64,000 nucleotides of DNA from Cohnella sp. SGD-V74 (GTDB taxonomy: Bacteria; Bacillota; Bacilli; Paenibacillales; Paenibacillaceae). The notes below the pieces were generated by a model, which was not told the DNA's origin, searched no databases, and was given only the letters and a program-made list of their open reading frames with translations. Numbering within the stretch: position 1 is the stretch's first letter; each line of letters opens with the position of its first letter. The DNA is taken from assembly GCF_003001675.1 (NCBI RefSeq), contig NZ_PVYW01000006.1, positions 124,001 through 188,000 of the forward strand, read 5' to 3'. Shown piece by piece: positions 5,152-59,932 of this stretch. The translations under genes were made by a program, and so were the position numbers.

Positions 5152-5368
5152 GGAGCTGTCCCATAAGTAGGGGCGTACAAGATTATCGATGAAAAAAGAA
5201 GGGCATCTATCTCCTGGAGACTGCCTCATACGATCCTGAAACCACCTTATCTCGGGTTTACCCATTCAAGTTTCAGGGTCGTATAGCATCGGAAGGAGAT
5301 AGATGCCCATTACCATTCACCTATCGATAATTGTTCGGTACGTCTCTTCTTACCTATGGGGCAGCCCC
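5152..5368 (+). repeat. Long covarying hairpin element, copy E1
   Basis: This 217-bp region folds almost end to end. The outer arms are GGAGCTGTCCCATAAG and CTATGGGGCAGCCCC, with wobble pairs. An ATTATCGAT/ATCGATAAT pair follows. The middle arms GGGCATCTATCTCC (5201-5214) and GGAGATAGATGCCC (5295-5308) are perfect, and the inner stem pairs CATACGATCCTGAAAC with GTTTCAGGGTCGTAT. The loop core contains CGGGTTTACCCATTC. Copies at 53554, 55724 and 59721 share this plan with different but still paired stems. Both the GH42 and GH88 genes run into it from opposite sides, so here it may serve as a shared transcript end. Confidence 0.85.
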
Positions 5369-5390
5369 ATTCGCATTTCAAGCGTCGGCA

Positions 5391-6533
5391 TTACTCCCAG
5401 AAGATCGTACCTTCGCCGCGAAGCCGCGCCAAGCCTTCGACGAAGAAGAAGTCTCCGTAGATGAGCGGAACTCCGATGTTTTTGCCTTCCGGGTAGTGGC
5501 TCGTTCCTTCGCCAATGAGTCCTTCCTCGTCCGCGCGGTCCCACGCCCCGTAATTCCGATACAGCGATTCGAGCATGCGAACGGCAGGCTCGCGGTAGAC
5601 GTGAGCTTCCAGAGAGCCGACCTGCTCGGCGAGCAGCAGCAAGCCGCTGGCCGCGATTGCGCCGGCGGACGAATCCCGATGCTTCTTCACGTCGGGCGGC
5701 AGACGGAAATCCCAGTGCGGCACATGGTCGTCCGGCAGATTGGACAGGAAGAAATGGGCGACCCGCTTGGAACCGTTCAAGTAAGCGGGATTGCCGGTAT
5801 GATGATAGGATAAGGCCAGCCCGTACAGCGCCCACGCCGTTCCCCGCGACCAGGCGGATTCGGCGGCGTAGCCTTGACCCCCTCTCGCCTGCACCCGCTG
5901 TCCGCTCGCCGGATCGAATTCGACGATATGATAGACGGAGCCGTCCGGACGGATGAAATGCTCCAGCACGGTGTCCATATGCGCTTCCGCGACGTGGCGG
6001 TAGCGCGGATCGCCGGTCTCCCGCGACGCCCAGTACAGCAGCGGCGCGTTCATGGCGCAGTCGATAATGGCCCAGCCTGCGTTGTCGTCTCCCTCGAACC
6101 ATGGGTTCCAGGCGCGAATATACCGTCCGCGCAAGTTAAACCGAGCGGCAAGATAATTGGCCGCCTTCAGCGCCCGTCTTCGCGAAGCTTCGTCCTGCCG
6201 GAGCTTATAGGAAGCGACGCTCGTCAGCGTCCACATGAAGCCGAGATCGTGATCAAGCCTGTCGTATCCGTCCAGCACCTCGTCCAGACGGACTTCGCAG
6301 CTTGCGGCCGTCTCTCTCAGCCTGTCGTCCCCGCTCTCTTCGTAGAGCTGCCACAGCATTCCCGGCCAAAACCCGGCCGTCCACCAATACGGCTCTTCCA
6401 GCGCGTACGCGCCGCCGACGCTTGCATGCGGAAATCCGTCCCCGATGCGGGCCAGATTGCGCAGCGTCTTCTCCTTGGCCTTGCTCCACGCTTCCTCGAC
6501 CCAGGCGGGCCGGTTCTTGCCCGTTGTCTCCAT
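5391..6533 (-). CDS. Unsaturated uronyl hydrolase, glycoside hydrolase family 88
   Basis: 380 residues, the normal GH88 size, with the (alpha/alpha)6-barrel signature. Both family aspartates are visible: D96 in DHDLGFM and D158 in AIIDCAMN, matching D88 and D149 of the Bacillus GL1 enzyme. GH88 enzymes release the 4,5-unsaturated uronic acid from the non-reducing end of oligosaccharides made by polysaccharide lyases. No signal peptide is seen, so the substrate is imported. A GGAGGATAAC site precedes the ATG. It lies 15 bp after the heparinase II/III-type gene, giving a lyase plus hydrolase pair, and is the last gene of the operon. The exact glycan (glycosaminoglycan-like, gellan, ulvan or another) cannot be read from the sequence. 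Confidence 0.92.
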   Translation of the reverse strand: METTGKNRPAWVEEAWSKAKEKTLRNLARIGDGFPHASVGGAYALEEPYWWTAGFWPGMLWQLYEESGDDRLRETAASCEVRLDEVLDGYDRLDHDLGFMWTLTSVASYKLRQDEASRRRALKAANYLAARFNLRGRYIRAWNPWFEGDDNAGWAIIDCAMNAPLLYWASRETGDPRYRHVAEAHMDTVLEHFIRPDGSVYHIVEFDPASGQRVQARGGQGYAAESAWSRGTAWALYGLALSYHHTGNPAYLNGSKRVAHFFLSNLPDDHVPHWDFRLPPDVKKHRDSSAGAIAASGLLLLAEQVGSLEAHVYREPAVRMLESLYRNYGAWDRADEEGLIGEGTSHYPEGKNIGVPLIYGDFFFVEGLARLRGEGTIFWE

Positions 6534-6548
6534 AGACGTTATCCTCCA

Positions 6549-8336
6549 TTAATTCCCGTTATCCAACTCGAAAACCAGCTCGATCCGATTCGTCGGTTCC
6601 GGTCGGCGCAGCTTCCACTCGATCGCATGCCATTCCCTCGGCTTCCCGAAATGATCGGAATAGACGCGCCGCTCGGCCGACGCCTCCAGCAAGCCGCTAT
6701 CGTAGCGAATCAGCGCGGTCAAGCCGCCATCCGTCAGACGCACCGTTCCCTCGGCCGCCAGATCGGGGGGAACGAAGGTAACGACCCGTTCCGCGAAGCC
6801 GAGCGGCTCGCCTTCGAACGATACCACGTCGGTCAACGTCAAGCGGCATTCGTCCGCCTTGCGCCACCTGAGCTCGCGAACGAGCGACGCCAGCCCGGTC
6901 ACCCGATAGGCCTGGCGCAAATCCAGTCGCAGCACGTCCTCTTGTTCGCCCGCAATCGCTTCCAAGACCACGGCCGCGCGCTCTCTCCCGGCCTCTTGTC
7001 CGCGGCCGCCCACGATCGGCACGGAATGCCCCTGCGTGCCGTTGCAATCGTAATCGTACCGGCCCGCGCCGAAATAAGCGGCCGTATACTCCCCGCTGCC
7101 CAAGTCGGCCGCGTAAGCCGTTCCGTCGACCATCCAGATGAACTGTCCGACGTCGTTGTGGTTGTGCGGCTCGTCGTTATGGCCGCCTTTGGCCGCGAAG
7201 CCGAAGCATCGTCCCGCTTCCGTCTCATAGCGGGACAGCAGCCACTGCGCGTCGGGAAAATAACGCGATGCCGGACGCAAGCTTCCGGACGCCGCCATTC
7301 CCGAATCTCTCCAGACCCAATCCCGGAGAACGGGCGCCCACCGGTGGCAGTGATCTTCCCCCAAGCCCGCTCCGTATCGCGCGTCGGGCGCCTCTACTTC
7401 AGGATAGAGCCGGGCCAAGTAATGCGTCAGTCCTGCGCGGAAAGGAATCGCCTGCAGCGAGTCGGAGAAGCTCGCGACGCGATCCCCGCACAAATAAGCC
7501 GCCTGCTGGAACAACGCAATGCTTCGGACCTTCGGCTTCGCGAACAGGTCGATCCGGCCCCCCGTGCGCTTGCTCAACAGATCGGCAAAACAGACGTAGT
7601 AGCCGAACCCGTAATTCCAATAGCCGAGCCCCTCCAGACAAGCCCCGTCTTCCCCGAAGCCTTCCAAATAACAGTCCAAGGCCGGCAGCGCCCTGGCCAG
7701 CACGGCCTCCAACGTCGCCGAATCGGTCATCCGCAGCAAAGCCGCCGAGCCGATCGACCCTGCGCATACGGCGGCCCAATTGTGCTTGGCCGTCTCCCAA
7801 TGATGGGGACCGTGCCGCAGCAGCGGCTCGATCAACCGCTCCGATACCGCGCGATCGATCGCCTCCGTCAGCTCCGGCGGAAGCCGATTGCCGAGCAGGC
7901 ACGCGATCTCGCTTAACGTAAACCCGGTCTCCGAGGAGAACAAGTCGATCGTCTTCGCGGCATCCGTCCCCTTCACATGAGCGGGCAGACACCAGGTTCG
8001 CTCTTCGAGTATAGCGCGCACCGTCTCCAGCAGCTTCCCGTAAAACCGCTCCTCGGCAGGCTCCAGCAAGCTCAGCAGCGCGAAGGCGTTCAGCCTTCTC
8101 CGCCGCTCGAAATACGCTCGCTCGTACTCCAGACGGGAGCCCGTTCGCTCGAAAATCGAGAACAGCTCCTCCGTCAGTTCCGGAAGCGGCTCTGCCGACA
8201 GCCGTTCCCCTTCCCCGCGAACCTCCGCGGCCAACTCCGCGAATTCCGGCGCCGTCGCAGCCCGCGCCCAGAACTCGGCGGCGCTCTCTCCCGCGGGATA
8301 GTAGAGTTCGTCCACGCTCCGCCCGATCCATTCCAC
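6549..8336 (-). CDS. Heparinase II/III-type polysaccharide lyase
   Basis: 595 residues. The N-terminal half is the alpha/alpha toroid of the family, with TAKHNWAAVC near 183-191 and the EGLGYWNYGFGYY segment at 235-247. The C-terminal beta-sandwich carries the hallmark GGHNDEPHNHNDVGQF at 384-399. Heparinase II/III-like enzymes (families PL12, PL15, PL17 and PL21) cleave uronic-acid glycans by beta-elimination. There is no signal peptide, so this is probably an intracellular oligosaccharide lyase that feeds the adjacent GH88 enzyme. The start is GTG at 8336 behind AGGGGGAAGG. It lies 27 bp after the response regulator gene, in the same operon. The PL family assignment is not certain. Confidence 0.88.
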   Translation of the reverse strand: MEWIGRSVDELYYPAGESAAEFWARAATAPEFAELAAEVRGEGERLSAEPLPELTEELFSIFERTGSRLEYERAYFERRRRLNAFALLSLLEPAEERFYGKLLETVRAILEERTWCLPAHVKGTDAAKTIDLFSSETGFTLSEIACLLGNRLPPELTEAIDRAVSERLIEPLLRHGPHHWETAKHNWAAVCAGSIGSAALLRMTDSATLEAVLARALPALDCYLEGFGEDGACLEGLGYWNYGFGYYVCFADLLSKRTGGRIDLFAKPKVRSIALFQQAAYLCGDRVASFSDSLQAIPFRAGLTHYLARLYPEVEAPDARYGAGLGEDHCHRWAPVLRDWVWRDSGMAASGSLRPASRYFPDAQWLLSRYETEAGRCFGFAAKGGHNDEPHNHNDVGQFIWMVDGTAYAADLGSGEYTAAYFGAGRYDYDCNGTQGHSVPIVGGRGQEAGRERAAVVLEAIAGEQEDVLRLDLRQAYRVTGLASLVRELRWRKADECRLTLTDVVSFEGEPLGFAERVVTFVPPDLAAEGTVRLTDGGLTALIRYDSGLLEASAERRVYSDHFGKPREWHAIEWKLRRPEPTNRIELVFELDNGN

Positions 8337-8363
8337 GATGACCTTCCCCCTTCGCCGAGCCGT

Positions 8364-9968
8364 CTATTTGCGATATTCCATAGGCGTTACGCTTGCATGC
8401 GACTTGAATGTTTTAATGAAATAGCTCTGATTGTCGTAGCCCAGCATCTCCGATATTTCCCCGACCGTATGGGACGTCTGGTCCAGCAGCTCCTTGGCCC
8501 GGTCCATCTTCATCCGCGTTACGTATTCGATGAACGTCTCGCCCGTCACCTTCTTGAACATCCGGCTGAAATAGCTGGCGTTCAGGTGCAGGCTGTCGGC
8601 CACCTCGTCCAGAGAGATGCGGCGATGAAGATTGAGGGATACGTATTTGCACGCCTCCTTCACCTCCGGCCGTTTGTTGATCGAGGCGGCCCGATCCCCT
8701 TCTTCCGAGGCGGCCAGTTGGCCGCTTAGCCATTCGCGAAGCTCGCGAACCGAATCGATCGCCGAGATTTCCTTGTGCAGCGTATCCGCGGAATAGCCCG
8801 ACCGGACGTATTGCAAGGTGCGCAGCTTCAGCTTTAAATCCAGCACCAGCTTCAGCGCCCAATCCTTCACCGCGGCAGGAGGATACCTGCCCCGGATAAT
8901 GCGCTCGATCCAGGCATCCGCCATCCGGCAAGCGTCGGAATGCCTTCCGTCGATCAACGCTTCTCTCAGCTCGGAATTGGCGGCGTCGTAATGGACGAAC
9001 AGATCCTCCTCGCTCAGTTCCTCCGTTCTCTGCTTCGCCACCGCGCCCGACTCCAGATAGAATCTTTGCTCCTCGTCCGTTACCAGCTCGTGCAAATTGC
9101 GCTTGAGCGCCTTCGTCGCTCCGCACTCCGTGCCGAGCACGAAGGCCATCCGGATTTTAAGAACCGACCCTATGGCCTTCTGGACGATCCGGCACAGCTC
9201 CGCCGCCCGGTCGTATGCGTTCGTTTTCAGGCTCGGCTTGTACGAGATCAGCAGCAGATGCTTTCTTTCGCTGTACGCGATATGCAGAGCACGGAGCTCC
9301 GGCTCGGCCAGCACCTCGGCAATGACGTTGGCGATGGCGAACCGGAGCGTCTGCTCCGAGGCGAAGCGCTGCTTCGCGCGGGTATAGTCCTCGACGTAGC
9401 CGATCGCGGGAAGGCACCACGTCTCCTCCGCGAACAGGCCGAAGCCGTTCGCCTCCGTCATCCACTCATCCGCCGACAGCAGCGGCTGGTGAATGAAGTT
9501 TTTGAACGCCTGCTCCTTGCGCAGCTCCCTGGCGTCGTTCGCCAACGCATGGAGCCGCAGCCGTTCCCCGCTCATCTGCCGGTCCGCGTCCAAATCCTCC
9601 TTGAAACGCTCCAGCATCGGTACGAGTTCGCCGGGCTGCAGCGTCTCCTTGAGCAAATATTCCTGCACGCTGAGTCTCATTGCCTGCTGAGCGTAAGCAA
9701 ACTCGTTATGACAGGACAGGATGACGATCCGGGCATCCGGCTTCCGTTCCTTGATCTTGGCGCACAGCTCCAGTCCGTTCATCTTGGGCATGCCGATGTC
9801 GGTAATGAGGATGTCCGGCATTTCCGACTGCGCATGATCCCAGGCGACCGCTCCATTCTCGAACGCTCCGATCAGGCGAAACCCCCGGGCTTCCCAATCG
9901 ATCGATTCCGACAGCAGCTCCAGAACGGGATAATCGTCGTCTACCAGCATGACGTTATACATGGCCAT
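8364..9968 (-). CDS. YesN-type response regulator with AraC output domain
   Basis: 534 residues. The N-terminal receiver domain has the acidic pair at D10-D12, the phosphorylated aspartate D57 in LITDIGMP, and a late lysine in YLLKE. A linker of about 300 residues follows, then a C-terminal AraC-type double helix-turn-helix (SLHLNASYFSRMFKKVTG and EISEMLGYDNQSYFIKTF). It receives phosphate from the kinase encoded just upstream, whose end it overlaps, and should activate the transporter and degradation operon. Two in-frame ATGs (9968 and 9962) follow a GAGAGG site; either could be used. Pairing and targets are inferred from gene order. Confidence 0.92.
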   Translation of the reverse strand: MAMYNVMLVDDDYPVLELLSESIDWEARGFRLIGAFENGAVAWDHAQSEMPDILITDIGMPKMNGLELCAKIKERKPDARIVILSCHNEFAYAQQAMRLSVQEYLLKETLQPGELVPMLERFKEDLDADRQMSGERLRLHALANDARELRKEQAFKNFIHQPLLSADEWMTEANGFGLFAEETWCLPAIGYVEDYTRAKQRFASEQTLRFAIANVIAEVLAEPELRALHIAYSERKHLLLISYKPSLKTNAYDRAAELCRIVQKAIGSVLKIRMAFVLGTECGATKALKRNLHELVTDEEQRFYLESGAVAKQRTEELSEEDLFVHYDAANSELREALIDGRHSDACRMADAWIERIIRGRYPPAAVKDWALKLVLDLKLKLRTLQYVRSGYSADTLHKEISAIDSVRELREWLSGQLAASEEGDRAASINKRPEVKEACKYVSLNLHRRISLDEVADSLHLNASYFSRMFKKVTGETFIEYVTRMKMDRAKELLDQTSHTVGEISEMLGYDNQSYFIKTFKSHASVTPMEYRK

Positions 9969-11793
9969 CCATCCTCTCGTAAGCGATCGTCACCCGGATC
10001 AACGTTCCGGCTTCCTTGCGGCTCTCCACCGCGATAGAGAAGCGGTCTCCGCACAGCATCGTCATTCTCTCGACCACGTTCGTCAAACCCATTCCCGAGA
10101 AAGCCGTTCCGGCTCCGATTCCCGCCTTGGCCGCCGCCTTGCCCTTCTGCGCCCCCTGGTCGTCCATTACCCGCTGCAGCTTGCCGTTCAGCGCGTCGAC
10201 GGCTTCCTCGTCCATGCCGACGCCGTCGTCCTCAACCGCGAGATGAAGCACGCGATCCCGCATCTCCGCGCCGATGCGAATGAGCCCCGCCTTCTGGTTG
10301 AAGCCGTGAATGAGCGCGTTCTCCACGATAGGCTGCAGGAAGAAGCGCGGCACCCGCACGAGCATCGCCTCGGAGGCGATGTCCAGCGACAGCTCGACCT
10401 TCTCCTTCTGACGCAAGTTCATCAGCTCCACGTAGTGGGTAAGCAGCTCAAGCTCCTCGTGCAGGCTGATCTCGTCCGCGTCGCTGTTGATCGTCATGCG
10501 CAGCAGCGTCGAGAGCGAGCCGATCATCTTCGCGCTGTCCGAATCTCCGCCGCGCATCACTTTCATGCGGATGGAATTCAGAACGTTAAACAAGAAATGG
10601 GGATGAATTTGCGCCTGCAGCATTTTCAGCTCCGCCTTGCGCTTGCGCGCCTGCGTATCGGATATTTCCGCGATCATCTCCTGAATCCGGTCCAGCATCT
10701 GATCGAACAGAAAGCCGAGCCGGCCGATCTCGTCCGTCCCCCTGACCCCCGATCTGACGCTCAGATTCCCTCTCTGCACGGTGGAGGTCGTTCGGCCAAG
10801 CTGCACGAGCGGCTTCGTGAAGGCGCGGAGCAGAATGAGCAGAATAAGCAGAAACACCGCGAGAGAAGAAATCTGCACGACGAACACCTGGTTGAAAATC
10901 GAGCTGATGTCGACGATCGCCTCGCTGTAGCGCTGCTTGGATACGAGCCGCCAATCGTTGAACGAGAACGGCTTCTCCGTGATCAAATATTTCTCGCCGT
11001 CTATCGTCCGGATCGAAGTGTGCAGGTTTCCCGCGGACTCCCCGACTTCCGTGAACGTCTGTCCGATCTGCGACCCGTCGCCGCCGGACAAGATCCGGCC
11101 GTTCTCGTCCAGCAGCATCATCTCCTGGTCAGAGCTAAGCTTCTCGAACAAACGTCTCACTTGGTTCTCCATAACGGTAATGACGACGTACCCGTAAATT
11201 CGCGAATCGTCCCGGCGCAGCGGGCGGGCGAGCGACAGCTGGTACGGGCTCTCCTCCGACATGTAGGCGAACATGACCGGACTGGCTCCGATCCAGTGGG
11301 AGATCGGCCACTTCAAGCCGTCCAGCCGCTCGAACCACGGTTCCTCCTTCAGCTGCAGAGGATTGTAGTCGCTCGTGGAGTAGTTGGTAAAGAAAGTGTC
11401 GTCGGTAAGCAGGACGGTAATGTAGCTTTTATCGCTGACGGTCAGACTGTCGAGCTGTTCGATAATTCTTTTCTGATCCGTAAAATTCAAATAAGCGTCG
11501 CGGCTCTCGGTGTTGCCCGAGACGACCAGCTTGAAATAGCTCGTCATGCTCGCGTTCGTCTGAATGTAGTTCGCCATGTTCAGCATGCTGGTCAGCAGAT
11601 TCGATACCGAGCTCTCCGCCAGCAGCAAGGAATCCTGGGCGTTGGACACCGCCTGACGCTGCACGGCGTCCTTCGTCAGGGAAGTGTAGATAAACTGCGT
11701 CAGCACCGCGGGAATCAAAATGCAAGCGATTGCGGCAATCATCAGCTTATGTCTTATCGACCGCAATCCGAACCCTTTGTTCATCCGCAGCAT
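9955..11793 (-). CDS. YesM-type sensor histidine kinase
   Basis: About 612 residues from the ATG at 11793, which follows GGGGGAG. The frame stays open further upstream, but only through hairpin and MITE sequence. The order is a transmembrane segment, a large extracellular Cache-like domain, a second transmembrane segment, HAMP, then a His_kinase (PF06580) domain with the phospho-accepting histidine in QIHPHFLFN (about residue 399). An ATPase domain follows with QPIVENALIHG, EDDGVGM and GMGLTNV. The kinase sits in the membrane and probably senses the glycan-derived sugar or the loaded binding protein made from the gene upstream. It overlaps the response regulator gene downstream. Confidence 0.92.
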   Translation of the reverse strand: MLRMNKGFGLRSIRHKLMIAAIACILIPAVLTQFIYTSLTKDAVQRQAVSNAQDSLLLAESSVSNLLTSMLNMANYIQTNASMTSYFKLVVSGNTESRDAYLNFTDQKRIIEQLDSLTVSDKSYITVLLTDDTFFTNYSTSDYNPLQLKEEPWFERLDGLKWPISHWIGASPVMFAYMSEESPYQLSLARPLRRDDSRIYGYVVITVMENQVRRLFEKLSSDQEMMLLDENGRILSGGDGSQIGQTFTEVGESAGNLHTSIRTIDGEKYLITEKPFSFNDWRLVSKQRYSEAIVDISSIFNQVFVVQISSLAVFLLILLILLRAFTKPLVQLGRTTSTVQRGNLSVRSGVRGTDEIGRLGFLFDQMLDRIQEMIAEISDTQARKRKAELKMLQAQIHPHFLFNVLNSIRMKVMRGGDSDSAKMIGSLSTLLRMTINSDADEISLHEELELLTHYVELMNLRQKEKVELSLDIASEAMLVRVPRFFLQPIVENALIHGFNQKAGLIRIGAEMRDRVLHLAVEDDGVGMDEEAVDALNGKLQRVMDDQGAQKGKAAAKAGIGAGTAFSGMGLTNVVERMTMLCGDRFSIAVESRKEAGTLIRVTIAYERMDGHV

Positions 11794-11831
11794 GCAAGCT
11801 CCCCCCCGTGTACGCAAGTTGCTTCTAGAAG

Positions 11832-12087
11832 CAAAAACGCCTGCGGCGTCCTTAGGGCGTGTCTTCAAACCCGCTCAGGGGCATCTATCACCGCCTTTTC
11901 GCCCCCTTCTTCGTCACTTTTGCTTGACGTACCTCCGGTACGCCTTCACAAAAGTTCCTTGCATGGAACGAAAATTCGGCAATATCTGCTGTCCTCGGAG
12001 TATGAAAACACGCCCTAGGACGGCGAACGCGTTTTTGTCGGAGACGATACAGACAATGATAAACGTGAAACTTATAAATTCTGTATC
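11832..12087 (-). repeat. AAAAACGCC hairpin element, copy H1, interrupted by a MITE
   Basis: Without the MITE, CAAAAACGC at 11832 and GCGTTTTTG ending at 12037 pair. The inner pair GGCGTCC/GGACG closes on a TA where the MITE is inserted. Next to it is a second stem, GATACAGA (12046-12053) with TCTGTATC (12080-12087). The same two-stem plan, with a different second stem, occurs at 28754. It lies between the binding-protein gene and the kinase gene of the operon. Confidence 0.65.
11853..12017 (-). mobile_element. MITE copy M1, 165 bp
   Basis: The element is bounded by TAGGGCGTGT and ACACGCCCTA and is nearly identical, in the opposite orientation, to the 165-bp copy at 36595-36759. A shortened copy is at 23640-23754. 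It encodes no transposase. The TA at each end is consistent with a TA target duplication. It sits at the loop of hairpin element H1, within the operon between the binding-protein and kinase genes, so it may affect transcription into the kinase gene. Confidence 0.8.
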
Positions 12088-12093
12088 GTTAAC

Positions 12094-12121
12094 AAAGGGG
12101 GACAGCGACTGGGCTGTCCCC
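12094..12121 (-). terminator. Intrinsic terminator or attenuator after the binding-protein gene
   Basis: On the minus strand GGGGACAGC pairs perfectly with GCTGTCCCC around a six-base loop, followed by only a short T run (TTTGTT). It lies about 20 bp after the binding-protein stop codon and before the kinase gene of the same operon, so it is more likely a partial terminator than a complete one. Confidence 0.6.
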
Positions 12122-12140
12122 GCAACATCAGTATAGCACG

Positions 12141-13562: not shown

Positions 13563-13675
13563 CGTGACACCCTCCTATTGGATAAGTAATCTGGTGTTGA
13601 CAATCCACATTATAAAGGCGTCCTTCCGAACTCAAATGTAACTATATTTACCTATAATGTAATATTTTTGATCAG

Positions 13676-14515: not shown

Positions 14516-14532
14516 GGCGTTTCATCTCCCAA

Positions 14533-15465: not shown

Positions 15466-15550
15466 GTTGAACACCTCGACTTTGAAAATCTGAATACATT
15501 AGAACCTATAATAGAGAAGTCTATCGGCTCGTCATCCTCTGTATGGTGTC

Positions 15551-49630: not shown

Positions 49631-49722
49631 TAGAATCACTTCTCCCTGTTTAGATATCGAGGCTTATACAGTTCGCAACCCCAATTTTCATTATTCTCAT
49701 TGGTTTACATGGTTTTGACTTG

Positions 49723-49779: not shown

Positions 49780-49933
49780 TATCCATTCATAGCATTTTTT
49801 TAATATCCGCTCATTTCCCGAATCGCAAGCAGAAATTTGCTATCGCTTTATTGCATTTTTCTATTATTCAACGATCGGACCGTTCCCCTATGATGATCTA
49901 AAACGGAGGCCGCGAAACGGGGAGGAAAGCCTG

Positions 49934-51184: not shown

Positions 51185-51202
51185 AGGAGGATCAATTTTT
51201 AC

Positions 51203-53551
51203 ATGTGGAAGAGGTTCCTGCTCCGGAGAAGGAGCGTTATCCTGACCTGGCTGTTGTCCTATCTGGCCATCCTGTTCGTCCCTCTTCTCATCAGCAGCTT
51301 CGTCTATTCCCGATCCCAGGAGCTGCTCAAGAGCGAGATCCACCATGCGAACAACGTCCTGCTGCAGGAAGTCCGCGAAGTCATCGACAACCAGGTCGAC
51401 AGCGTAAAGCGGTTGACGACGGAGCTGATCTGGAACGTGCGGCTTCGGGCCTTTATGTACTCCAGCCTCTACTCGACCCCGGCAAGCCTGGACGGAGAGC
51501 TGTACAATCTGCATATCGCGGCGAAGGACTTGGCCATCTACCGAACCTTGTATCCTTCCATCCGAACGTATTACGTCTATTGGAAAAACATGGACCTTAT
51601 TTTCGAACCGGGCATCTACCGCGACCATAAGCTTGCTTACGAGACGATCCACGAGAACGACGCCATCTCCTACGAGATCTGGCTGAACCTGCTGCAGCGC
51701 AAAAACGCGGGAGGCTTCATCAAGCTGGCCAGCAAGGACGCCAAGCCCAGCACGCTGGCTTACATTCAATCCTTTCCCGGCGAACGGCTGGAGAGCTCTC
51801 CCGGCACGTCGGTCGTCCTCCTCGATACGACGAAATTAATGGAGACGATTCGCAACGTTCAAGCCTTCAGCGAAGGCCAGGTGCTCGTCCTGAATCCGGA
51901 AAAGCAAGTGCTGGTCTCGACGGACAGCACCCAGCAGCCGCTTTATCTGTCCAACATCGCCTTCGAAGGACAGAGCGGCTCCGCGTTCGAGGAATACAAG
52001 GGCGAGCCGTCGGAGTTCATGTACATCAAGTCGAGCAACTCGGAGCTGATCTACGCCACCGTCGTCCCGAGCACCCTGGTCTGGCAGAAAACCGACTCGC
52101 TGCGCAGCATCATGTATATCGGCATGCTGATCAGCATCGTCGGAGGCCTTATTTTGTCGGCCTTGTTCCTGCTGCGGAACTACAGCCCGATTCAGCGGCT
52201 GCTCCGTCTGCTCCAGACGGTCGAGAAAAAGGAAGCGGCTCCCGTCGGGGACGAGTTCCACCGGATTCAGCAAGCGATCTCGGATACGCTGGACGAGAAA
52301 GGCCGGATTTATTCGCGAATGAAGCAGCAGTCCTCCATGCTTCGTTCGAATATGCTGACCCGCATGCTGAAAGGACGAATGGACAACCGGCTCGCGCTCG
52401 ACGAGTCGCTGACCGCCTTCGACGTCCATTTTCGCTCGGAGAGGTTCGCCGTTATTCTGTTTTACGTCGACGACGAACGCTTCTTCGAGCATATCGACGC
52501 CGTATCGGTCCGGGACAAGACGCGCCTGCTCGAATTCATCGTCGCCAACGTCGTCGAGGATTTGGCCGGCGAGAAGCATCAGGGCTTCGCCTGCGAGATC
52601 GACGACAACATCGCGTGCCTGATCAATCTGACCGACGGTCCGCACGAAGGGCTGCGCGAGGATCTGCGGGAGATCGCCCTTCGGGCGTCCCGTTTTCTGG
52701 AGGAGAAATTCCGCATCGACACCCTCGTCTCCCTGAGCGGCATCAAGTCGTCCCGTCAGGAGATCGCCGAGGCTTATCGGGAAGCGGTGGACGCCATGGA
52801 ATACCGGATCGTCGTCGGCGACCAGGACGTGTCCGATTACGACGAACTGCGGCGGGAAGAAGCGCTCGCTCCCCCGTCCGACTACTACTACCCGATTCAA
52901 GTCGAGCAGCAGCTGATCAATCTGATCAAAGCCGGGGAAGCCGACGGAGCCGAGGAAATCGTGCGGGGCCTGCTGTCCCGAAGCCGGGAACGCGCCTCCC
53001 TGTCCGTGGAATGGGTCAAATGCCTGATGCACGATCTCGTCGGCACCCTCCTCAAGGCCGTCGGAGAGATCGGAGGCCCCGTGGACGGCTTGGCCGCCCG
53101 CATCGCGCAGCTCGTCAACTGCGAGTCGAGCCAGGAGATGGAAATCCAGCTCGCGGCGGCGGTCAGGGAGACTTGCGAATTCGCGCTGAGCAGGCAGAGG
53201 GAGAACACCAGCTCCTCCCGCAACCAGGCGATGATGGAGCGCAGCCAGGACATTCTGGCCTTCATCTCGGCCAATTACCGGGAAGCGAACCTGAACATCT
53301 CCATGATCGGAGAGCGCTTCGGAATGACGCCGACCTACTTGTCGAAGCTGTTCAAGGATCAGACCGGGCAAGGGCTGCTCGATACGATCAACCGCCTTCG
53401 CATCGAGGAGGCCAAGACGCTGCTGCGAGGCACCAAAGAGAGCATCAAATCGGTCTCGTCCCAAGTCGGCTTCCACGATATCAACACATTTATCCGCACG
53501 TTCAAGAAATACGAAGGCATTACCCCGGGACAATTTCAGAAGCTGGGTTAA
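51203..53551 (+). CDS. Membrane-anchored AraC-type regulator
   Basis: 782 residues. A transmembrane segment at about 12-34, an extracellular sensor region, a second segment at about 305-327 and a HAMP-like linker are followed by a long cytoplasmic region. The C-terminal AraC double helix-turn-helix reads GERFGMTPTYLSKLFKDQTG and SSQVGFHDINTFIRTFKKYEG. It is the complete counterpart of the truncated gene at 1-2031. AAGGAGG lies before the ATG. The likely target is the LplABC-type operon starting at 54059, in the same direction, separated by hairpin E2. Confidence 0.9.
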   Translation: MWKRFLLRRRSVILTWLLSYLAILFVPLLISSFVYSRSQELLKSEIHHANNVLLQEVREVIDNQVDSVKRLTTELIWNVRLRAFMYSSLYSTPASLDGELYNLHIAAKDLAIYRTLYPSIRTYYVYWKNMDLIFEPGIYRDHKLAYETIHENDAISYEIWLNLLQRKNAGGFIKLASKDAKPSTLAYIQSFPGERLESSPGTSVVLLDTTKLMETIRNVQAFSEGQVLVLNPEKQVLVSTDSTQQPLYLSNIAFEGQSGSAFEEYKGEPSEFMYIKSSNSELIYATVVPSTLVWQKTDSLRSIMYIGMLISIVGGLILSALFLLRNYSPIQRLLRLLQTVEKKEAAPVGDEFHRIQQAISDTLDEKGRIYSRMKQQSSMLRSNMLTRMLKGRMDNRLALDESLTAFDVHFRSERFAVILFYVDDERFFEHIDAVSVRDKTRLLEFIVANVVEDLAGEKHQGFACEIDDNIACLINLTDGPHEGLREDLREIALRASRFLEEKFRIDTLVSLSGIKSSRQEIAEAYREAVDAMEYRIVVGDQDVSDYDELRREEALAPPSDYYYPIQVEQQLINLIKAGEADGAEEIVRGLLSRSRERASLSVEWVKCLMHDLVGTLLKAVGEIGGPVDGLAARIAQLVNCESSQEMEIQLAAAVRETCEFALSRQRENTSSSRNQAMMERSQDILAFISANYREANLNISMIGERFGMTPTYLSKLFKDQTGQGLLDTINRLRIEEAKTLLRGTKESIKSVSSQVGFHDINTFIRTFKKYEGITPGQFQKLG

Positions 53552-53553
53552 GG

Positions 53554-53775
53554 AAGAGGCTGTCCCATAAGCCAACCAAGTTGCTGTGAAAGATAATCGA
53601 TGATAAAGGTGCAAGGGGTATGTACCTCCTTCCGATGCTATACGCTTCTGAAACCTGAATGGGTAAACCCGTGATAAGGTGGTTTCAGAAGCGTAGGAGG
53701 CATTCTCCAGGAGGTACATACCCCTTCTTTGTCTATCGATCAGCTCAAGCAACTCTGCTTATGGGACAGCCTCTT
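53554..53775 (-). repeat. Long covarying hairpin element, copy E2 (reverse orientation)
   Basis: 222 bp. The outer arms are GAGGCTGTCCCATAAG and CTTATGGGACAGCCTC, a perfect 16-bp pair. The middle arms are GGGGTATGTACCTCC (53615-53629) and GGAGGTACATACCCC (53710-53724). The inner stem pairs TACGCTTCTGAAACC with GGTTTCAGAAGCGTA. Its loop is the reverse complement of the E1 loop, so this copy is inverted. It begins 2 bp after the stop codon of the regulator gene. Confidence 0.85.
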
Positions 53776-54058
53776 TTGCGGTCGAAAAGGGCGATTTTCG
53801 GGAAATTGCCGATGCCGATTGCGATTTCGTCGATGCCGGAAGAGATTTGGACGATGCCGCTTGGCATGTTGACGATTCCCTCGGGGGAGCCTTTCGGAGC
53901 ATAATCGATAACGAGGCGCCTCACCGCTTTCAGGCATCGCGAAGCAGCCGCCCGGCGCGGATGCAGCGTTCGCGACAGGCCGCATATCGCATCATGCCTA
54001 TCGCATCCTAATGCATACCGATTAAGTTCAAGACGACGATACGGGAGGGTATACCAAG
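53776..54058. other. Gene-free region before the LplA gene
   Basis: It contains a run of GATGCCG-like near repeats (53805-53875) and AT-poor sequence, then a GGGAGGG ribosome binding site at the end. No consensus promoter, gene or hairpin was recognised; the promoter of the binding-protein gene must be here or upstream of E2. Confidence 0.5.
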
Positions 54059-55705
54059 ATGAAGTTCCAAACTTCGAGAACGTCCAAAGCCGCAGCGCTC
54101 ACGCTGACCGCGGCCATGCTGGTCTTCGCCGCAGCGGGCTGCTCCAGCGGCGGCAACGGCAAGGAAGCGGCATCGCCGTCCGCCTCCGCGCCCGCCGCAA
54201 GCTCCGGCGCTCCTTCGCAGGAAGGCGCGGAAATCTCCTATCCATTACAGACAGACAAGACGCTGACCTACTGGGCCGAGTACAACACGACCAAGTCGAC
54301 CATCGACGAGGTTCCCTTCTTCCAGGAGTGGCAGAAACGCACGGGCGTGCCGCTGAAGTTCATCAGTCCGCCGACGGGACAATCCAAGGATGCGCTCAAC
54401 ATCCTGCTGGCTTCCGGAGATTTGCCGGACATGATCGAGTTCGACTGGTTCAACTTCCCGGGCGGCCCCGAGAAGGCGATCGCCGACGGATACATCCTGC
54501 GGCTGAACGACGTCATCGACCAATACGCCCCGAACCTCAAGAAGTTTTTGCAGGAGCATCCCGATATCGACAAAATGCTGAAGACGGACAACGGCAGCTA
54601 CTACACGTTCCCGTTCCTGCGCGGAGATCCGATGCTGCAGGTGTACCAGGGACCGATCGTGCGCGGCGACTGGCTGAAGGAGCTGAACCTTCCGGTGCCC
54701 GAGACGATCGAAGAGTGGCATACGACGCTTCTGGCGTTCAAGGAAAAGAAAGGCGCGGTCAGCCCGCTGTCCTACATTTTCTCGGGAGAGTTTCTGAATA
54801 ACGGAGCGTTCATCGGCGCGTTCGATACGACCCGCGGCTGGTTCCAGGAGGACGGCCAGGTTCGCTTCGGTCCGATGCAGCCCGGCTACAAGGAGTTTCT
54901 GAGCACGTTCCGCCAGTGGTATACGGAAGGGCTGCTCGACAAGAACATCGCCAACGTGGACGGCAAGGCGCTGGACGCGAACATTACGTCCGGAGCGACC
55001 GGCGCAACCGTGGCGAATTCGGGCGGCGGTATCGGCAAATGGACTCCGCTGCTGCTCGAGAAGGAACCGGACTCCGAGCTCATCGCCGCGCCGTATCCGG
55101 TGCTCAACAAGGGCGACGCGCCTAAATTCGGCCAGAAGGACCCGCAGTTCTCGAACAACGGCAACGTCGCCATCACGTCGAGCTCCCAGAATGTTGAACT
55201 GGCCGCCCGTCTGCTGGATTACGGCTATGGCGAAGAAGGACATATGTACTTCAACTTCGGGCAGGAAGGCGTCAGCTACGAGATGAAGGACGGCGCTCCC
55301 GTCTATACGGACTTGCTGATGAACAACCCGGAGAAGCTGTCCCCGTCCCAAGCGATGTCCCTGTACATTCGCGCGAACTTCGCCGGGCCGTTCGTTCAGG
55401 ACAAACGGTACATTACGCAATATTTGGCGCTGCCGCAGCAGAAGCAGGCGCTCGAAGTATGGTCCAAGACCGACATCGACAAATACAAGGTGCCGCCGGT
55501 CACACCGACTCCGGAGGAAGCTTCCGAGCTGGCGCAAATCATGAACGACGTGAACACGCTCGTCGACGAGATGACGCTCAAGATCATTTTGGGCAACGAG
55601 CCGATCGACGCTTACGAGGGCTACCTGGACAAGCTGAAGTCGCTCAAGATCGACCGCGCCATCGAAATCCAGCAAACCGCGCTGGACCGGTACTACAATC
55701 GCTAA
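54059..55705 (+). CDS. LplA-type sugar-binding lipoprotein
   Basis: 548 residues, the LplA length. The signal peptide ends with lipobox AAAGC, followed by a Ser/Ala/Pro linker. The core shows QTDKTLTYWAEYNTTKS, PDMIEFDWFNFPGGPEKAI and GYGEEGHMYFNFGQEGVSYE, typical of binding proteins for complex oligosaccharides in Paenibacillaceae. It is followed by hairpin E3 and then two permease genes. The substrate is not known. Confidence 0.92.
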   Translation: MKFQTSRTSKAAALTLTAAMLVFAAAGCSSGGNGKEAASPSASAPAASSGAPSQEGAEISYPLQTDKTLTYWAEYNTTKSTIDEVPFFQEWQKRTGVPLKFISPPTGQSKDALNILLASGDLPDMIEFDWFNFPGGPEKAIADGYILRLNDVIDQYAPNLKKFLQEHPDIDKMLKTDNGSYYTFPFLRGDPMLQVYQGPIVRGDWLKELNLPVPETIEEWHTTLLAFKEKKGAVSPLSYIFSGEFLNNGAFIGAFDTTRGWFQEDGQVRFGPMQPGYKEFLSTFRQWYTEGLLDKNIANVDGKALDANITSGATGATVANSGGGIGKWTPLLLEKEPDSELIAAPYPVLNKGDAPKFGQKDPQFSNNGNVAITSSSQNVELAARLLDYGYGEEGHMYFNFGQEGVSYEMKDGAPVYTDLLMNNPEKLSPSQAMSLYIRANFAGPFVQDKRYITQYLALPQQKQALEVWSKTDIDKYKVPPVTPTPEEASELAQIMNDVNTLVDEMTLKIILGNEPIDAYEGYLDKLKSLKIDRAIEIQQTALDRYYNR

Positions 55706-55723
55706 AAACGGGTTCGCGAACGC

Positions 55724-55947
55724 GGTCTGTCTCATAAGTCGGGGCGACCAAAATGATCCATAAAAAGAATGGGGATATATCTCCTGTAGAGCGAAGCGCC
55801 TGCCTCATACGGTCATGAAATTACCCTGTTACGGGTTAATCCATTCCTAATTTCATGACCGTATCAGCAGCGTAAGGAGATATATCCCCATGGTAATACG
55901 TGGATCATTTTATAAGGTTGGCTCCCTAATAACTTATCGGACAGACC
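55724..55947 (+). repeat. Long covarying hairpin element, copy E3
   Basis: 224 bp. Outer arms GGTCTGTCTCATAAGT (55724-55739) and ACTTATCGGACAGACC (55932-55947); a further pair ATGATCCA/TGGATCAT; middle arms GGGGATATATCTCC (55771-55784) and GGAGATATATCCCC (55876-55889); inner stem CATACGGTCATGAAATTA with TAATTTCATGACCGTAT. The loop core CGGGTTAATCCATTC matches E1 and E4. A 10-12 base insertion follows the left middle arm. It lies between the binding-protein stop and the first permease gene. Confidence 0.88.
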
Positions 55948-55968
55948 CTTCGGCCAGGAAGGTGAAGC

Positions 55969-56889
55969 ATGGACAAAACGGCTTTCGGCAGAAGATTCGT
56001 CAGAGACTTCTTGACGAACAAATACCTGTACGCCATGATGATCCCCGTTATCGCGTACTATCTCATATTCCAATACACGCCGATGTACGGCGTGCTGATC
56101 GCCTTTAAGAATTACGTGCCGGCAAAAGGCATTCTGGGCAGTCCCTGGGTCGGACTCGACCATTTTCAGGCGTTTTTCGACAGTTACTATTTTCTGAGAG
56201 TGCTGAGCAATACGATAATCATCAGCGTGTACTCCCTTCTCTTCGAGTTCCCGGCTCCGATTATTCTGGCCCTGATGATCAACGAAGTACGCAGCCGACG
56301 GTACAAGAAATTCGTCCAGACCGTTACCTACATGCCTTATTTTATATCCATGATCGTCATCGCCGGCCTGATCCGCGACTTCACGGACAGCGGCGGCGTC
56401 ATCAATACGCTCTATTCGTATTTCGGCGGCGACGGCACCTCCATGCTGCAGCATGCCGGCTTGTTCCGCCCGATCTACATTCTGTCCGAGATCTGGCAGA
56501 AGATCGGCTGGGAATCGATCATTTACTTGGCGGCGCTCATGGGCATTGATCAGGATCAATACGAAGCGGCGCGCATCGACGGGGCCGGCAGACTGAAGCA
56601 GATCTGGTACGTCACCCTTCCCGGCATCCTGCCGACGATCGTCATTCTGTTCATTCTGCGCGTCGGCAACCTGCTCAACGTCGGCTTCGAGAAAATCATT
56701 TTGCTGTACAATCCGATCACGTACGAGACGGCCGACGTCATCTCTTCATTCGTCTATCGCAAAGGTCTGCTGGAGTTCAACTGGAGCTACAGCACCTCGG
56801 TCGGCGTGTTCAATTCCGTCATCAATCTGACGCTGCTCGTGCTGGCCAACTGGCTCAGCAGAAAAGTTACGAAAAACAGCTTGTGGTAA
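55969..56889 (+). CDS. LplB-type sugar ABC permease
   Basis: 306 residues with six predicted helices. MIPVIAYYLIFQYTPMYGVL is the LplB-type N-terminal helix and the EAA loop is YEAARIDGAGRLKQIWY. AGGAAGGTG precedes the ATG. It is separated from the binding-protein gene by hairpin E3 and is followed 30-40 bp later by the LplC-type permease gene. Confidence 0.92.
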   Translation: MDKTAFGRRFVRDFLTNKYLYAMMIPVIAYYLIFQYTPMYGVLIAFKNYVPAKGILGSPWVGLDHFQAFFDSYYFLRVLSNTIIISVYSLLFEFPAPIILALMINEVRSRRYKKFVQTVTYMPYFISMIVIAGLIRDFTDSGGVINTLYSYFGGDGTSMLQHAGLFRPIYILSEIWQKIGWESIIYLAALMGIDQDQYEAARIDGAGRLKQIWYVTLPGILPTIVILFILRVGNLLNVGFEKIILLYNPITYETADVISSFVYRKGLLEFNWSYSTSVGVFNSVINLTLLVLANWLSRKVTKNSLW

Positions 56890-56928
56890 GCAAGCAGCAC
56901 GCTTCATGTTCACCAGGAGGTGTCGGCC

Positions 56929-57804
56929 TTGAAGAACGGCCCGGCGGATCGGATCACGCTGCTTGCCATCAATCTGATGCTGCTCGCGTTGGTCATCGTC
57001 ACTTTGTATCCGATTTTGCACGTCATATTCGCTTCGTTCAGCAGCCCGGCCGAGATCGTCTCGCACCGGGGCCTGCTCTGGAAGCCGCTGGGCTTCAGCC
57101 TTGAAGCCTACAAGCTCGTCTTTGCCGATCCGCGCATCTATATCGGTTACCGGAACACGCTGTTTATCGTCGTTGTCGGCGTGGCGCTTAATCTGCTGAT
57201 GACGGCGCTCGGCGCTTATGTGCTCTCGCGCAAAAACGTCATGTGGAACAAGTTTTTCATGATTATGGTGACGTTCACCATGTTTTTCAGCGGCGGCCTT
57301 GTTCCCTTGTATTTGGTCGTCAAAGGCGTCGGTCTGACGAACACGCTGTGGTCGACGATTTTGCCGTTCGCCATCTCAACCTTTAATCTGATCGTGATGA
57401 GAACCTCCTTCCAATCCATCCCGGACAGTCTGGAGGAGTCGGCCAAGATCGACGGGGCGAATCATCTGGTCATTCTGTTTCGCATCGTTATTCCGCTGTC
57501 GCTGCCGGTGCTGGCCGTCATGGGGCTCTACTACGCGGTCGAGAAGTGGAACGGCTGGTTTTATGCCTCCATCTTCATTCAGCAGCAGGAGCTGTTCCCG
57601 CTGCAAATCTACCTTCGGGAAATTCTCATTCTGAGCTCGACGGACTCGCTCTCCTCGGGAGCGGCGGTCGGCGAGCAGTTCCAGATCGGAGCCACCATCA
57701 AGTACGCGACCATCATGGTCGCCACCGTTCCGATTCTGTGCGTCTACCCTTTCATTCAGCGCTTCTTCGTAAAAGGAGTCATGATCGGCGCGCTGAAGGG
57801 ATAA
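56929..57804 (+). CDS. LplC-type sugar ABC permease
   Basis: About 291 residues, six predicted helices, EAA loop LEESAKIDGANHLVILF and C-terminal GALKG. The frame allows a GTG at 56920, but that codon overlaps the AGGAGG ribosome binding site, so TTG at 56929 is the likely start. A terminator follows about 30 bp after the stop codon, ending the first LplABC operon. Confidence 0.9.
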   Translation: MKNGPADRITLLAINLMLLALVIVTLYPILHVIFASFSSPAEIVSHRGLLWKPLGFSLEAYKLVFADPRIYIGYRNTLFIVVVGVALNLLMTALGAYVLSRKNVMWNKFFMIMVTFTMFFSGGLVPLYLVVKGVGLTNTLWSTILPFAISTFNLIVMRTSFQSIPDSLEESAKIDGANHLVILFRIVIPLSLPVLAVMGLYYAVEKWNGWFYASIFIQQQELFPLQIYLREILILSSTDSLSSGAAVGEQFQIGATIKYATIMVATVPILCVYPFIQRFFVKGVMIGALKG

Positions 57805-57833
57805 CCAGAGTCATTTTCCCCAATAGCCAATAC

Positions 57834-57876
57834 AGAGGGCAGTTCCGTTGTCGAAGCGACTTCGGAGCCGCCCTCT
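57834..57876 (+). terminator. Terminator of the first LplABC operon
   Basis: AGAGGGC pairs with GCCCTCT at the outer end and TTCCG with CGGAG-like bases inside, followed by TCGTCTATTT. The T run is imperfect, but position after the last gene supports it. Confidence 0.6.
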
Positions 57877-57955
57877 TCGTCTATTTGCGCAAGCCGGTCA
57901 AAAGGTGTATACGAAAGGTAAAGACTAGTATATGGATGACCGTCGCCCCCGTTCC

Positions 57956-57961
57956 TATACT
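57956..57961 (+). promoter_or_regulatory. -10 box of the second LplABC operon
   Basis: TATACT with a poor TGGATG 17 bp upstream, about 65 bp before the binding-protein start. The weak -35 fits activation by the YesN-type regulator encoded at the end of the operon. Confidence 0.4.
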
Positions 57962-58029
57962 TGAATTAGGAAGCGAAGCTGCCTTGGCGCAGCGGGACTC
58001 ACCATCATCAGACACTGTGGAGGGGTAGT

Positions 58030-59706
58030 ATGAAGCTGGGCAGGAAATTCCTCTTGATCACGACCTTGATTGTCAGCGTGGCACTGGCCGCGTGCGGCAA
58101 CAATGCGAAGGAAACCGAGAAGTCGTCGCCGAGCGCATCGCCGTCGGCGTCAGCCGGCTCGAGCGCTTCGAGCGGCGCCGAGAGCGGCGAAGTGATCGAA
58201 GTATCGACGGTTTCCCAAAGCGATCCTTACCTGAAGTTCGACGAGGGCGAGAGCTGGGAAAAGAATTCGATATACGATGCTTATGAGAAAGATATCGGCG
58301 TCAAAATCACGAACAAATGGATCGCCGACGTCACTCAATTCAAAGAAAAAGTAAAAATTACGATTGCCTCTGACGATTTGCCGGATTTCCTGATGGTCAA
58401 CGCGACTCAGCTCAAGGAGCTGACCGAGGCCGACATGATTATGGATTTGACAGAATTGTATGAGCAATATGCTACGGATGAAACGAAAAAGTTTCTGACG
58501 ATGGACGGCGGCTTGCAGATGAAGACGGCCACGTTCGACGGCAAACTGATGGGTATTCCAAGCTCTTATAACCCGTATCAGTACCAAAACCTGTACGTCC
58601 GCACGGACTGGCTAAAGGAGCTGAACCTGCCCGAGCCGAAAACGATGGCCGACTTGGTGGCCGTCTCCGAAGCGTTCAAAGCGAAAAACCCGGGCGGCAA
58701 AAGCACGACCTACGGGCTTGCGGTCAGCAAAAATCCGTTCAGCATCGAAACCGGCGTAACCGGATTGCGCGCCTTCCTCAACGGCTATCATGCGTATGAG
58801 AATATCTGGATCGACGACGGCAACGGCGGACTAGTCAACAGCGATATTCAGCCGGAAGTCAAGCAAGCTCTCGCTGCGCTGCAGGATATGTTCAAGAAGG
58901 GCTTGATCGATCCGGAATTCGCCGTCAAGGACACGGAGAAAGCAGCCGAGCTGCTCTACGACGATGGCATCGGCATGGTGTTCGGCGCAACCTGGACTCC
59001 GGCTCAGCTCGTTAAGGGCGCGGTCAAAGACGGCAAAATCGTGCAAGAATGGGGCGTCTTCCCGATTCCTTCGGTGGACGGCAACCCGGCTCGTCCGCAG
59101 ATCGGTATCGGCGTAGACGAATACTACGTGATTTCCAAGAAAGCGAAGCATCCGGAAGGCGTCATCAAGCTGTTGAACCAATGGATCGTCGTCGACAACC
59201 ATCCGACCGAAGACCAGAAGGTTTACGGATACGGCAAGGATCGCGTCGAGAAAGGCAGCAATTACTGGCTGCTCAATCCGCTTCGCGTCGGCAAGCAGCT
59301 CGACAACAACGGAGAGATTCTTCCTAAAGCCATCGAAACCAAGGACGCGAGCATCCTGCAGACGCAAGACCAGAAAAATCGTTATGAGCGTGCGATGAAA
59401 TTTGTCGACGGCGATACGAGCATGTGGTGGGAATACTTGATTTCCGGTCCGAAAGGCGCCTTCTCTTACGGTCCGGAAATCCAGAAGAACAAGCAATACA
59501 TGCAGAACAAATTCTACGGCGCTCCGACGCCTACGATGGTCGACAGACAGGAAATTCTGACCAAGAAGCGCGACGAGGTGTACTTCAAGATTATGATGAA
59601 CCAAGTGTCCGTCGACGAATTCGACAAGTTCGTGGAAGAGTGGAAAAAGCTTGGCGGAGACGAGATTACGAAGGAAGTTAACGAGTGGTATAGCGCTAAT
59701 AAATAA
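58030..59706 (+). CDS. LplA-type sugar-binding lipoprotein
   Basis: 558 residues. The signal peptide ends with lipobox VALAAC, then a short Ser/Ala linker. The core resembles the protein at 54059 only distantly, so the two are old paralogues with probably different sugars. ITNKWIADVTQFKEKVKI and KAKNPGGKSTTYGLAVSK are typical family 1 stretches. TGGAGGGG precedes the ATG. Hairpin E4 and two permease genes follow, then a kinase and a response regulator, giving a complete sense-and-import operon. Confidence 0.92.
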   Translation: MKLGRKFLLITTLIVSVALAACGNNAKETEKSSPSASPSASAGSSASSGAESGEVIEVSTVSQSDPYLKFDEGESWEKNSIYDAYEKDIGVKITNKWIADVTQFKEKVKITIASDDLPDFLMVNATQLKELTEADMIMDLTELYEQYATDETKKFLTMDGGLQMKTATFDGKLMGIPSSYNPYQYQNLYVRTDWLKELNLPEPKTMADLVAVSEAFKAKNPGGKSTTYGLAVSKNPFSIETGVTGLRAFLNGYHAYENIWIDDGNGGLVNSDIQPEVKQALAALQDMFKKGLIDPEFAVKDTEKAAELLYDDGIGMVFGATWTPAQLVKGAVKDGKIVQEWGVFPIPSVDGNPARPQIGIGVDEYYVISKKAKHPEGVIKLLNQWIVVDNHPTEDQKVYGYGKDRVEKGSNYWLLNPLRVGKQLDNNGEILPKAIETKDASILQTQDQKNRYERAMKFVDGDTSMWWEYLISGPKGAFSYGPEIQKNKQYMQNKFYGAPTPTMVDRQEILTKKRDEVYFKIMMNQVSVDEFDKFVEEWKKLGGDEITKEVNEWYSANK

Positions 59707-59720
59707 CCCCGGACGCGTAC

Positions 59721-59932
59721 GGAAGAGCGTCTCGAAAGTAAAGCTGATCTAGATTATCGATAGGAAAAAGTGCGCATGTGTCTCCTGGAGAAGGCCTCAT
59801 ACGGTCCTGAAATAACCTTGCAACGGGTTAACCATTCCGGATTTCAGGAGCGTATAGACTCGGATGGAGATACATGCGCGTTTACTATTCAGATGTCGAG
59901 ATCTTTGAACCGCTTTCGGAACAGACCTTCCC
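59721..59932 (+). repeat. Long covarying hairpin element, copy E4
   Basis: 212 bp. The outer arms are worn: GGAAGAGCGTCTCGAAAG with CTTTCGGAACAGACCTTCC. The middle arms are GCGCATGTGTCTCC (59772-59785) and GGAGATACATGCGC (59866-59879), paired with one G-T. The inner stem pairs CATACGGTCCTGAAAT with ATTTCAGGAGCGTAT. The loop core is CGGGTTAACCATTC. It lies between the binding-protein gene and the first permease gene. Confidence 0.85.

Follow-up and report, generated by a model that had tools for sequence, protein, structure and literature searches.

The question raised by this locus is why one elaborate hairpin recurs four times between the genes of a single stretch of Cohnella sp. SGD-V74. 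The stretch, hereafter the window, comprises 64,000 nucleotides (contig NZ_PVYW01000006.1, positions 124,001 to 188,000 of the forward strand), and its four hairpin copies are termed E1 to E4. A first-pass annotation of the window described these copies and posed selection on the fold and a mobile origin as alternatives; our results support a view in which the two fit together. E1 to E4 probably belong to a non-autonomous hairpin family of about 215 bp, similar to miniature inverted-repeat transposable elements (MITEs) and related to the insertion sequences of the IS1182 family. We consider it probable that this IS1182-type element replaces intrinsic terminators of transcription and then serves as a terminator itself, with the pairing of its arms kept by selection. 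Beyond the earlier annotation, the copies lie just past stop codons, relatives hold hairpins at the same places, and the core of the hairpin stands before a transposase gene.

All four copies are where the annotation had placed them, and each folds better than its dinucleotide shuffles. E1 (5152..5368, plus strand; subfamily B; z score -10.1) lies between convergent open reading frames (ORFs) with Pfam matches to Glyco_hydro_42 and Glyco_hydro_88. E2 (53554..53775; subfamily A) lies on the minus strand, with z scores of -12.9 for the plus and -14.1 for the minus strand; the stop codon of an AraC-type regulator ORF (51203-53551) is two bases away, and a T tract follows. E3 (55724..55948, plus strand; subfamily C; z -9.9) follows an ORF that has no Pfam match and stops at 55705, and precedes a BPD_transp_1 permease ORF (55969-56889). 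E4 (59721..59931, plus strand; z -4.6), a divergent copy, begins 14 bases past the stop of an SBP_bac_8 ORF (59706) and is ahead of a BPD_transp_1 permease ORF. Judging from the Pfam matches of the window ORFs, E3 and E4 stand among the ORFs of transporter gene rows. Rfam gave no match in the window at the gathering score.

The family extends far beyond the window. The loop core CGGGTTNANCCATTC occurs exactly 20 times in the host genome (G000, 8.24 Mb in 59 contigs), and the reversed control pattern does not occur. A covariance model (R1) was made from 20 copies, with rows kept at an expectation value (E) of 1 or less. On the host genome it returned 143 rows, of which 39 are opposite-strand readings; the remaining 104 or more places are a lower bound because 150 of the 1405 first-look candidates were scored with R1 (weakest counted row, E 0.0099). 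Matches were found in 19 of 37 Cohnella genomes, the host included, with at least 81 in C. phaseoli (G020, where every scored candidate matched), 32 in G001, 14 in G024 and 9 in G005. Under stricter filters, 27 of 295 Paenibacillaceae genomes had an R1 match, representing 5 of 19 genera, and a search of plasmid and phage collections for the hairpin family gave none. The loop 17-mer was found in 37 stretches of a collection of named genomes, 23 of them from C. phaseoli; the other 14 were discarded as, by eye, chance-like matches with no hairpin.

For context and alignment, 98 of the 104 host places were read, among them the copy ahead of the host's own transposase (L126), together with 40 high-scoring copies out of the 81 of C. 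phaseoli. From the outside inwards, the element consists of outer arms (consensus near AGGGGCTGTCCCATAAG on the left and CTTATGGGACAGCCCCT on the right), an ATCGAT-type pair, middle arms, an asymmetric internal loop, an inner stem and the loop core. In E1, on the plus strand, these include the left outer arm GGAGCTGTCCCATAAG (5152..5167), which is an IS1182-type terminal repeat, the left middle arm GGGCATCTATCTCC (5201..5214, partner 5295-5308), the loop core CGGGTTTACCCATTC (5253..5267) and the right outer arm (5349..5368). The middle arms of subfamilies A to D are distinguished by matched changes. In 12 of the 98 host copies (L010, L127, L128 and L130-L138), the right inner arm contains an additional hairpin domain (GGGGCCCCCGCAAAGTAATCGG...CACTTTGTGGGG or a close variant); at the orthologous site L127/L190 the apex differs by this domain, which the C. 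phaseoli copy lacks. Shortened derivatives of about 50-140 bp (L214-L216, L219, L222, L223, L226, L228 and L229) retain the ends and have lost apex and core, as expected for centre deletions of long palindromes.

The position of the copies relative to genes is that of intrinsic terminators. Genes were called by a simple codon-usage script, with which single gene starts and the three divergent cases may be wrong, and one copy at a contig end (L089) was dropped from the host set. Among the 137 contexts (97 from the host and 40 from C. phaseoli), 80 are tandem, 47 convergent, 3 divergent and 7 undecided. The median distance from stop codon to element is 12 bp, and 146 of 177 values are no larger than 30 bp. 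In the tandem contexts, 60 of 76 elements lie within 25 bp of the upstream stop, as against 16.1 expected if they were uniform in the gap. The elements occur in both orientations relative to genes. For the 54 of 80 tandem copies with both ends within 3 mismatches, TTTT was found within 14 nt on the transcript's downstream side in 19 and on its upstream side in 5. The layout of an intrinsic terminator, a hairpin with a T tract just past a stop codon, is a property of the family as a whole and not of every copy. This placement and shape suggest that the copies act as terminators.

The same sites were compared in relatives with and without the element. C. phaseoli shares E4 (93% identity); G006, G018 and G028 lack it. 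G016 lacks E3 and carries a short hairpin in its place. The comparison was extended to three further sites (L027, L116 and L120), with five to seven relatives for each. Over these five sites, a hairpin at z < -3 is present in 19 of the 21 stretches from relatives in which the long element is missing. The score rests on 60 shuffles and is the most extreme value over several windows and both strands, so that z is inflated; the stretch of G016 at E2 was not in this set. By eye, a T or A tract stands beside the hairpin in 15 of the 19 stretches, the others being G018 and G028 at E4, G016 at E3 and G015 at L116. A strict finder that allows no bulges detected a hairpin in 10 of 22 stretches. Beside the host's own element at the five sites, no second hairpin at z < -3 was found in the 6 of 10 flanks tested (lowest -2.7), the remaining 4 being under 21 bases. 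A and T tracts flank the element at L027, L116 and L120 as they do in relatives (by eye), and not at E3 or E4. No target duplication was seen by eye at E3 and E4, where the relatives' flanks are highly diverged. A hairpin at the empty site that is gone at the filled site is the pattern of stem-loop replacement, here with empty sites from other species, and suggests that the resident stem-loop is lost when the element arrives.

Some places have been occupied more than once. At the L027 site, the short hairpin of G017 consists of nothing but the terminal repeat, and the copy in C. phaseoli is interrupted and points the opposite way. The shared places L111/L201, L106/L051 and L038/L183 carry different subfamilies in the host and C. 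phaseoli, with flank homology on one side only at L038/L183. Different copies at one place are what a preferred target gives. A further candidate, L101/L189, was dropped from the shared sites for lack of an alignment across the element.

These comparisons bear on the alternative that independent insertions simply persist best behind stop codons, namely an ordinary MITE that inserts at random, is purged elsewhere and is later co-opted as a terminator, with no stem-loop replacement. Survival bias is general for repeats, and the empty-site sequences come from other species and are not the insertion's ancestor, both of which would suit such an element. It would not account for the missing resident hairpin beside the element at the five sites, set against the 19 of 21 relatives' stretches that have one, nor for the A and T tracts shared with relatives at L027, L116 and L120 (though not at E3 and E4), nor for the places that have been taken repeatedly by different copies. 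This alternative is regarded as unlikely.

The ends of the element indicate how it may have moved. The outer end GGCTGTCCCATAAG has 114 matches at one mismatch or fewer, versus 1 for the reversed control, and it matches the ends of IS1182-type insertion sequences. The likeness to insertion-sequence ends noted at first reading was confirmed, and the possible mobile origin suggested there finds support. The same terminal repeats bound DUF772 transposase genes in G001 (L237; 0-1 mismatches) and in the host (L238; 1-2 mismatches). DUF772, which IS1272 bears and which is also present in other families, is presumably a mark of the IS1182 family here. The core hairpin itself lies between the left repeat and the transposase gene, in reverse orientation (L283, 91 bits, E 2e-20; host contig C27, 12048-12211). 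An antisense core 76-120 bp before the transposase match was found in G000, G001, G015, G025, G033 and G035, at 117-120 bp by coordinates in the last four; the terminal ends were checked in two of these six genomes. Of the 16 Cohnella genomes that are transposase-positive, at least six have this pair of core and transposase. In the Paenibacillaceae, relatives of the transposase were found in 81 of 295 genomes (E <= 1e-30). At 30 transposase loci, the left repeat was present within 4 mismatches in 29, in all of which it folds as a short terminator-like hairpin; the right repeat was at the usual distance in 27, nearer in the truncated L283 and absent in L296 and L312. A strong core match was found at 1 of the 30 loci and not at the other 29. 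The family thus has the terminal repeats and internal sequence shared with a transposase-bearing element, and the dispersed copies with presence and absence among species, that mark a MITE-like element. An IS1182-type transposase may have moved these copies, including in trans.

Two other hairpins of IS1182-type loci were observed. Many of the loci L283-L312 have in common, by eye, one more hairpin (AAAGAAACC...GGTTTCTTT) immediately ahead of the transposase start. This hairpin may act as a brake on expression. In another genus of Paenibacillaceae, noted in genomes G157, G201, G215 and G113, the IS1182-type elements L301, L303, L307 and L308 have a different long leader hairpin; for that of L303, the matches number 2-46 per genome over 8 genomes. 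The terminator rule was not shown for the L303 hairpin at the 20 places fetched, which lie 12 to 991 bp from stop codons and of which one (L345) has both terminal repeats in reach.

Replacement of terminators could proceed as follows. An IS1182-type transposase would join the element's hairpin ends to the host DNA at the base of a terminator hairpin, with loss of the resident stem-loop on arrival, as in the stem-loop replacement published for IS1272; the flanking A and T tracts could remain. The outer arms of the element and the T tract of the host would then form a new intrinsic terminator, over-long and often bidirectional. Arm pairing would be selected because the element serves as a terminator, and selection for termination would in this way give rise to compensated changes. 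Inside gene rows, as with E3 and E4, selection would act rather for partial termination or to shield the upstream message. Between the ORFs of the transporter rows, E3 and E4 are more likely to terminate partially or to protect the message than to terminate fully.

Compensated changes are frequent in the family. Alignment covered 120 of 138 copies, with 18 left out for odd length or the extra domain. In a 20-copy alignment, 97.1% of cells are paired, and both-sided change occurs in 19 of 49 pairs, compared with a shuffle mean of 8.5 (none of 500 shuffles was as high) and 3-6 for slid partners. The first-pass annotation had suggested a covariance model as a check, looking for many copies with covariation in all stems. 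The many copies were found, at 104 or more places in the host and in 19 of the 37 Cohnella genomes; the both-sided changes fall in four of the five inner helices, and none lies in the apical 4-pair helix. The outer arms covary as well. Relatedness was controlled with 46 disjoint sister pairs, all taken from subfamilies A and B, which hold 99 of the 120 copies. The pairs contain 179 double changes versus 58.4 expected under independent sides, and 90 of the doubles keep Watson-Crick pairing in both copies. Sliding the partner by 1, 2, 3, 5 and 8 pairs leaves 16, 14, 8, 7 and 4 compensated doubles. Covariation is thus above the expectation from relatedness, in agreement with the proposed selection on the fold. 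The claim that nearly every difference is matched on the opposite arm was too strong: the same sister pairs hold 593 one-sided changes and 89 doubles that are not Watson-Crick in both copies. The fold is under constraint, yet far from all changes are matched.

Covariation and conserved loops would also be found if the whole hairpin were a structured regulatory or catalytic RNA, located in 3' untranslated regions or between cistrons, whose conserved internal loops and loop core serve as a protein-binding site or have a role in RNA processing or mRNA stability, and whose likeness to an insertion sequence is incidental. The position of E3 and E4 between ORFs of transporter rows would suit such an RNA. 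One-sided changes read on the sense strand give G-U modestly more often than A-C (316 vs 248), with the excess in the middle stem (52 vs 25) and the inner stem (65 vs 42); the asymmetry is unclear in the outer arm (146 vs 127), and unpaired columns are similarly skewed (252 C>T and A>G versus 144 G>A and T>C). None of these counts is normalised, and the G-U asymmetry was dropped as a decider for RNA over DNA, being too weak. Insertion-sequence ends, dispersal, both orientations to genes and presence or absence between species tell against such an RNA, as does the lack of an Rfam match in the window. Furthermore, the core is missing from the shortened copies, which still have the ends, and relatives have short hairpins at the same positions. 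We consider an RNA function of this kind quite unlikely as the explanation of the family.

The matched arms could alternatively be produced in DNA without selection, if quasi-palindromes are corrected at replication through template switching or recombination between the arms. Among the cells of the 14 outer pairs in the 138 copies, 80 are compensated; at least one compensated pair is present in 45 copies, with a maximum of six in one copy, and several compensated changes in a single copy are what arm correction would produce. At the orthologous site of L012 (host contig C7, 261048-261204) and L185 (C. phaseoli), the outer arms are swapped left to right around a core that keeps its orientation, which points to recombination between arms. 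The outer pairs also contain 357 one-sided and 36 uncompensated double cells, both inflated by a few badly anchored copies, and the asymmetric inner loops persist throughout the 20 aligned copies; both tell against arm correction. It also leaves the terminator position unexplained, and we judge it quite unlikely to be the main cause. An element like REP/BIME, the high-copy extragenic palindromes that also lie between operon genes and are moved by Y1 transposases (RAYT), shares the copy number, extragenic position and palindromic form of the Cohnella family, but has next to no chance and is largely refuted for the host genome, where the sole Y1_Tnp match (L234, contig C18, 106351-106578) has an internal stop and the ends instead match the DUF772/IS1182 type.

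Several observations weigh against the replacement of terminators by an IS1182-type element. The T tract is modest, with TTTT after 19 of the 54 tandem copies only, and three of the four relatives' hairpins at E3 and E4 have no T tract. E3 and E4 are inside transporter gene rows, where full termination would be odd. The empty sites are all from other species; the hairpin is missing at L027 in G015 and at L116 in C. phaseoli (2 of the 21 stretches), the G015 stretch at L116 is not a clean orthologue, and the strict finder found no hairpin in the E2 stretch of G016. A terminator would need no conserved asymmetric inner loops; the outer arms alone would suffice, and yet the core and its asymmetric loops are conserved. 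As for mobility, the family and the transposase co-occur at chance level: 10 genomes have both, with about 8 expected from 19 model-positive and 16 transposase-positive genomes among 37. The host's own transposase copy is split over different reading frames and seems frameshifted, the C. phaseoli transposase match is distant (1.5e-40), and the family has spread in genomes with broken or distant transposase copies. Current mobility is doubtful because the copies are old; among the 120 aligned copies the best pair has 96% identity, and the median nearest relative in the same genome 85%.

The proposed replacement has a precedent in staphylococcal elements. IS1272 of the IS1182 family is reported to replace inverted repeats with no target duplication (PMC5678879), and TnSha1/IS1272 to insert in hairpins, several of which are terminators, with blunt loss of the stem-loop sequence, in both orientations, and with the same terminator hit repeatedly (PMC4923244). 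These elements and the Cohnella family have in common IS1182-family membership (here via DUF772), terminal repeats able to fold as stem-loops, hairpin or terminator targets, loss of the resident stem-loop, both orientations and repeated occupation of sites. IS1272 and TnSha1 are described as autonomous or composite, with 13 commonly existing IS1272 copies in the strains concerned; in contrast, the Cohnella family is about 215 bp long, too short to contain a transposase gene, forms a hairpin along its full length, occupies at least 104 places, and has covarying arms and a conserved core. The family would thus fit the IS1272 mode, by analogy, as a non-autonomous, high-copy variant that is hairpin-shaped throughout.

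Bacterial MITEs are suggested as possible formers of terminators in a review (PMC10969869). The MITEs characterised there are, like the Cohnella family, short, non-autonomous and intergenic, with terminal inverted repeats of insertion sequences and stable transcript folds. They tend to AT-rich intergenic targets with target duplication, whereas the Cohnella family is located at terminators and its ends vary together. SPRITE of Streptococcus pneumoniae is there described as similar to a rho-independent terminator, as is the Cohnella family; SPRITE and RUP of this species differ from it in lineage, and the likeness is by description only. In the open literature, no non-autonomous IS1182-type hairpin family at terminators was recognised among titles and abstract starts, papers naming both IS1182 and MITE being left aside.

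If terminators are replaced as proposed, mobile DNA can furnish terminators by the hundred without breaking genes. Orthologous Cohnella terminators would then constitute a natural experiment on hairpin turnover and arm-by-arm co-evolution, and the replacement mechanism would be testable on about 100 sites. The proposal joins the stem-loop-replacing transposition of staphylococcal elements with high-copy palindromic repeats of no known use. A bolder possibility, put forward tentatively, is that IS1182-type transposition rewired transcript ends genome-wide: terminators would be interchangeable sockets, solo hairpins would end about 100 genes, and the core would be a folded RNA or single-stranded DNA that acts as a ligand or regulator of the transposase and also steers the solo copies.

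A separate repeat of about 167 bp was also observed (L315, 1173-1340, corresponding to host contig C1, 416672-416839; L332 and L333). It has at least 19 copies in C. phaseoli with 91-98% identity and, from this similarity, looks much younger than the hairpin family.

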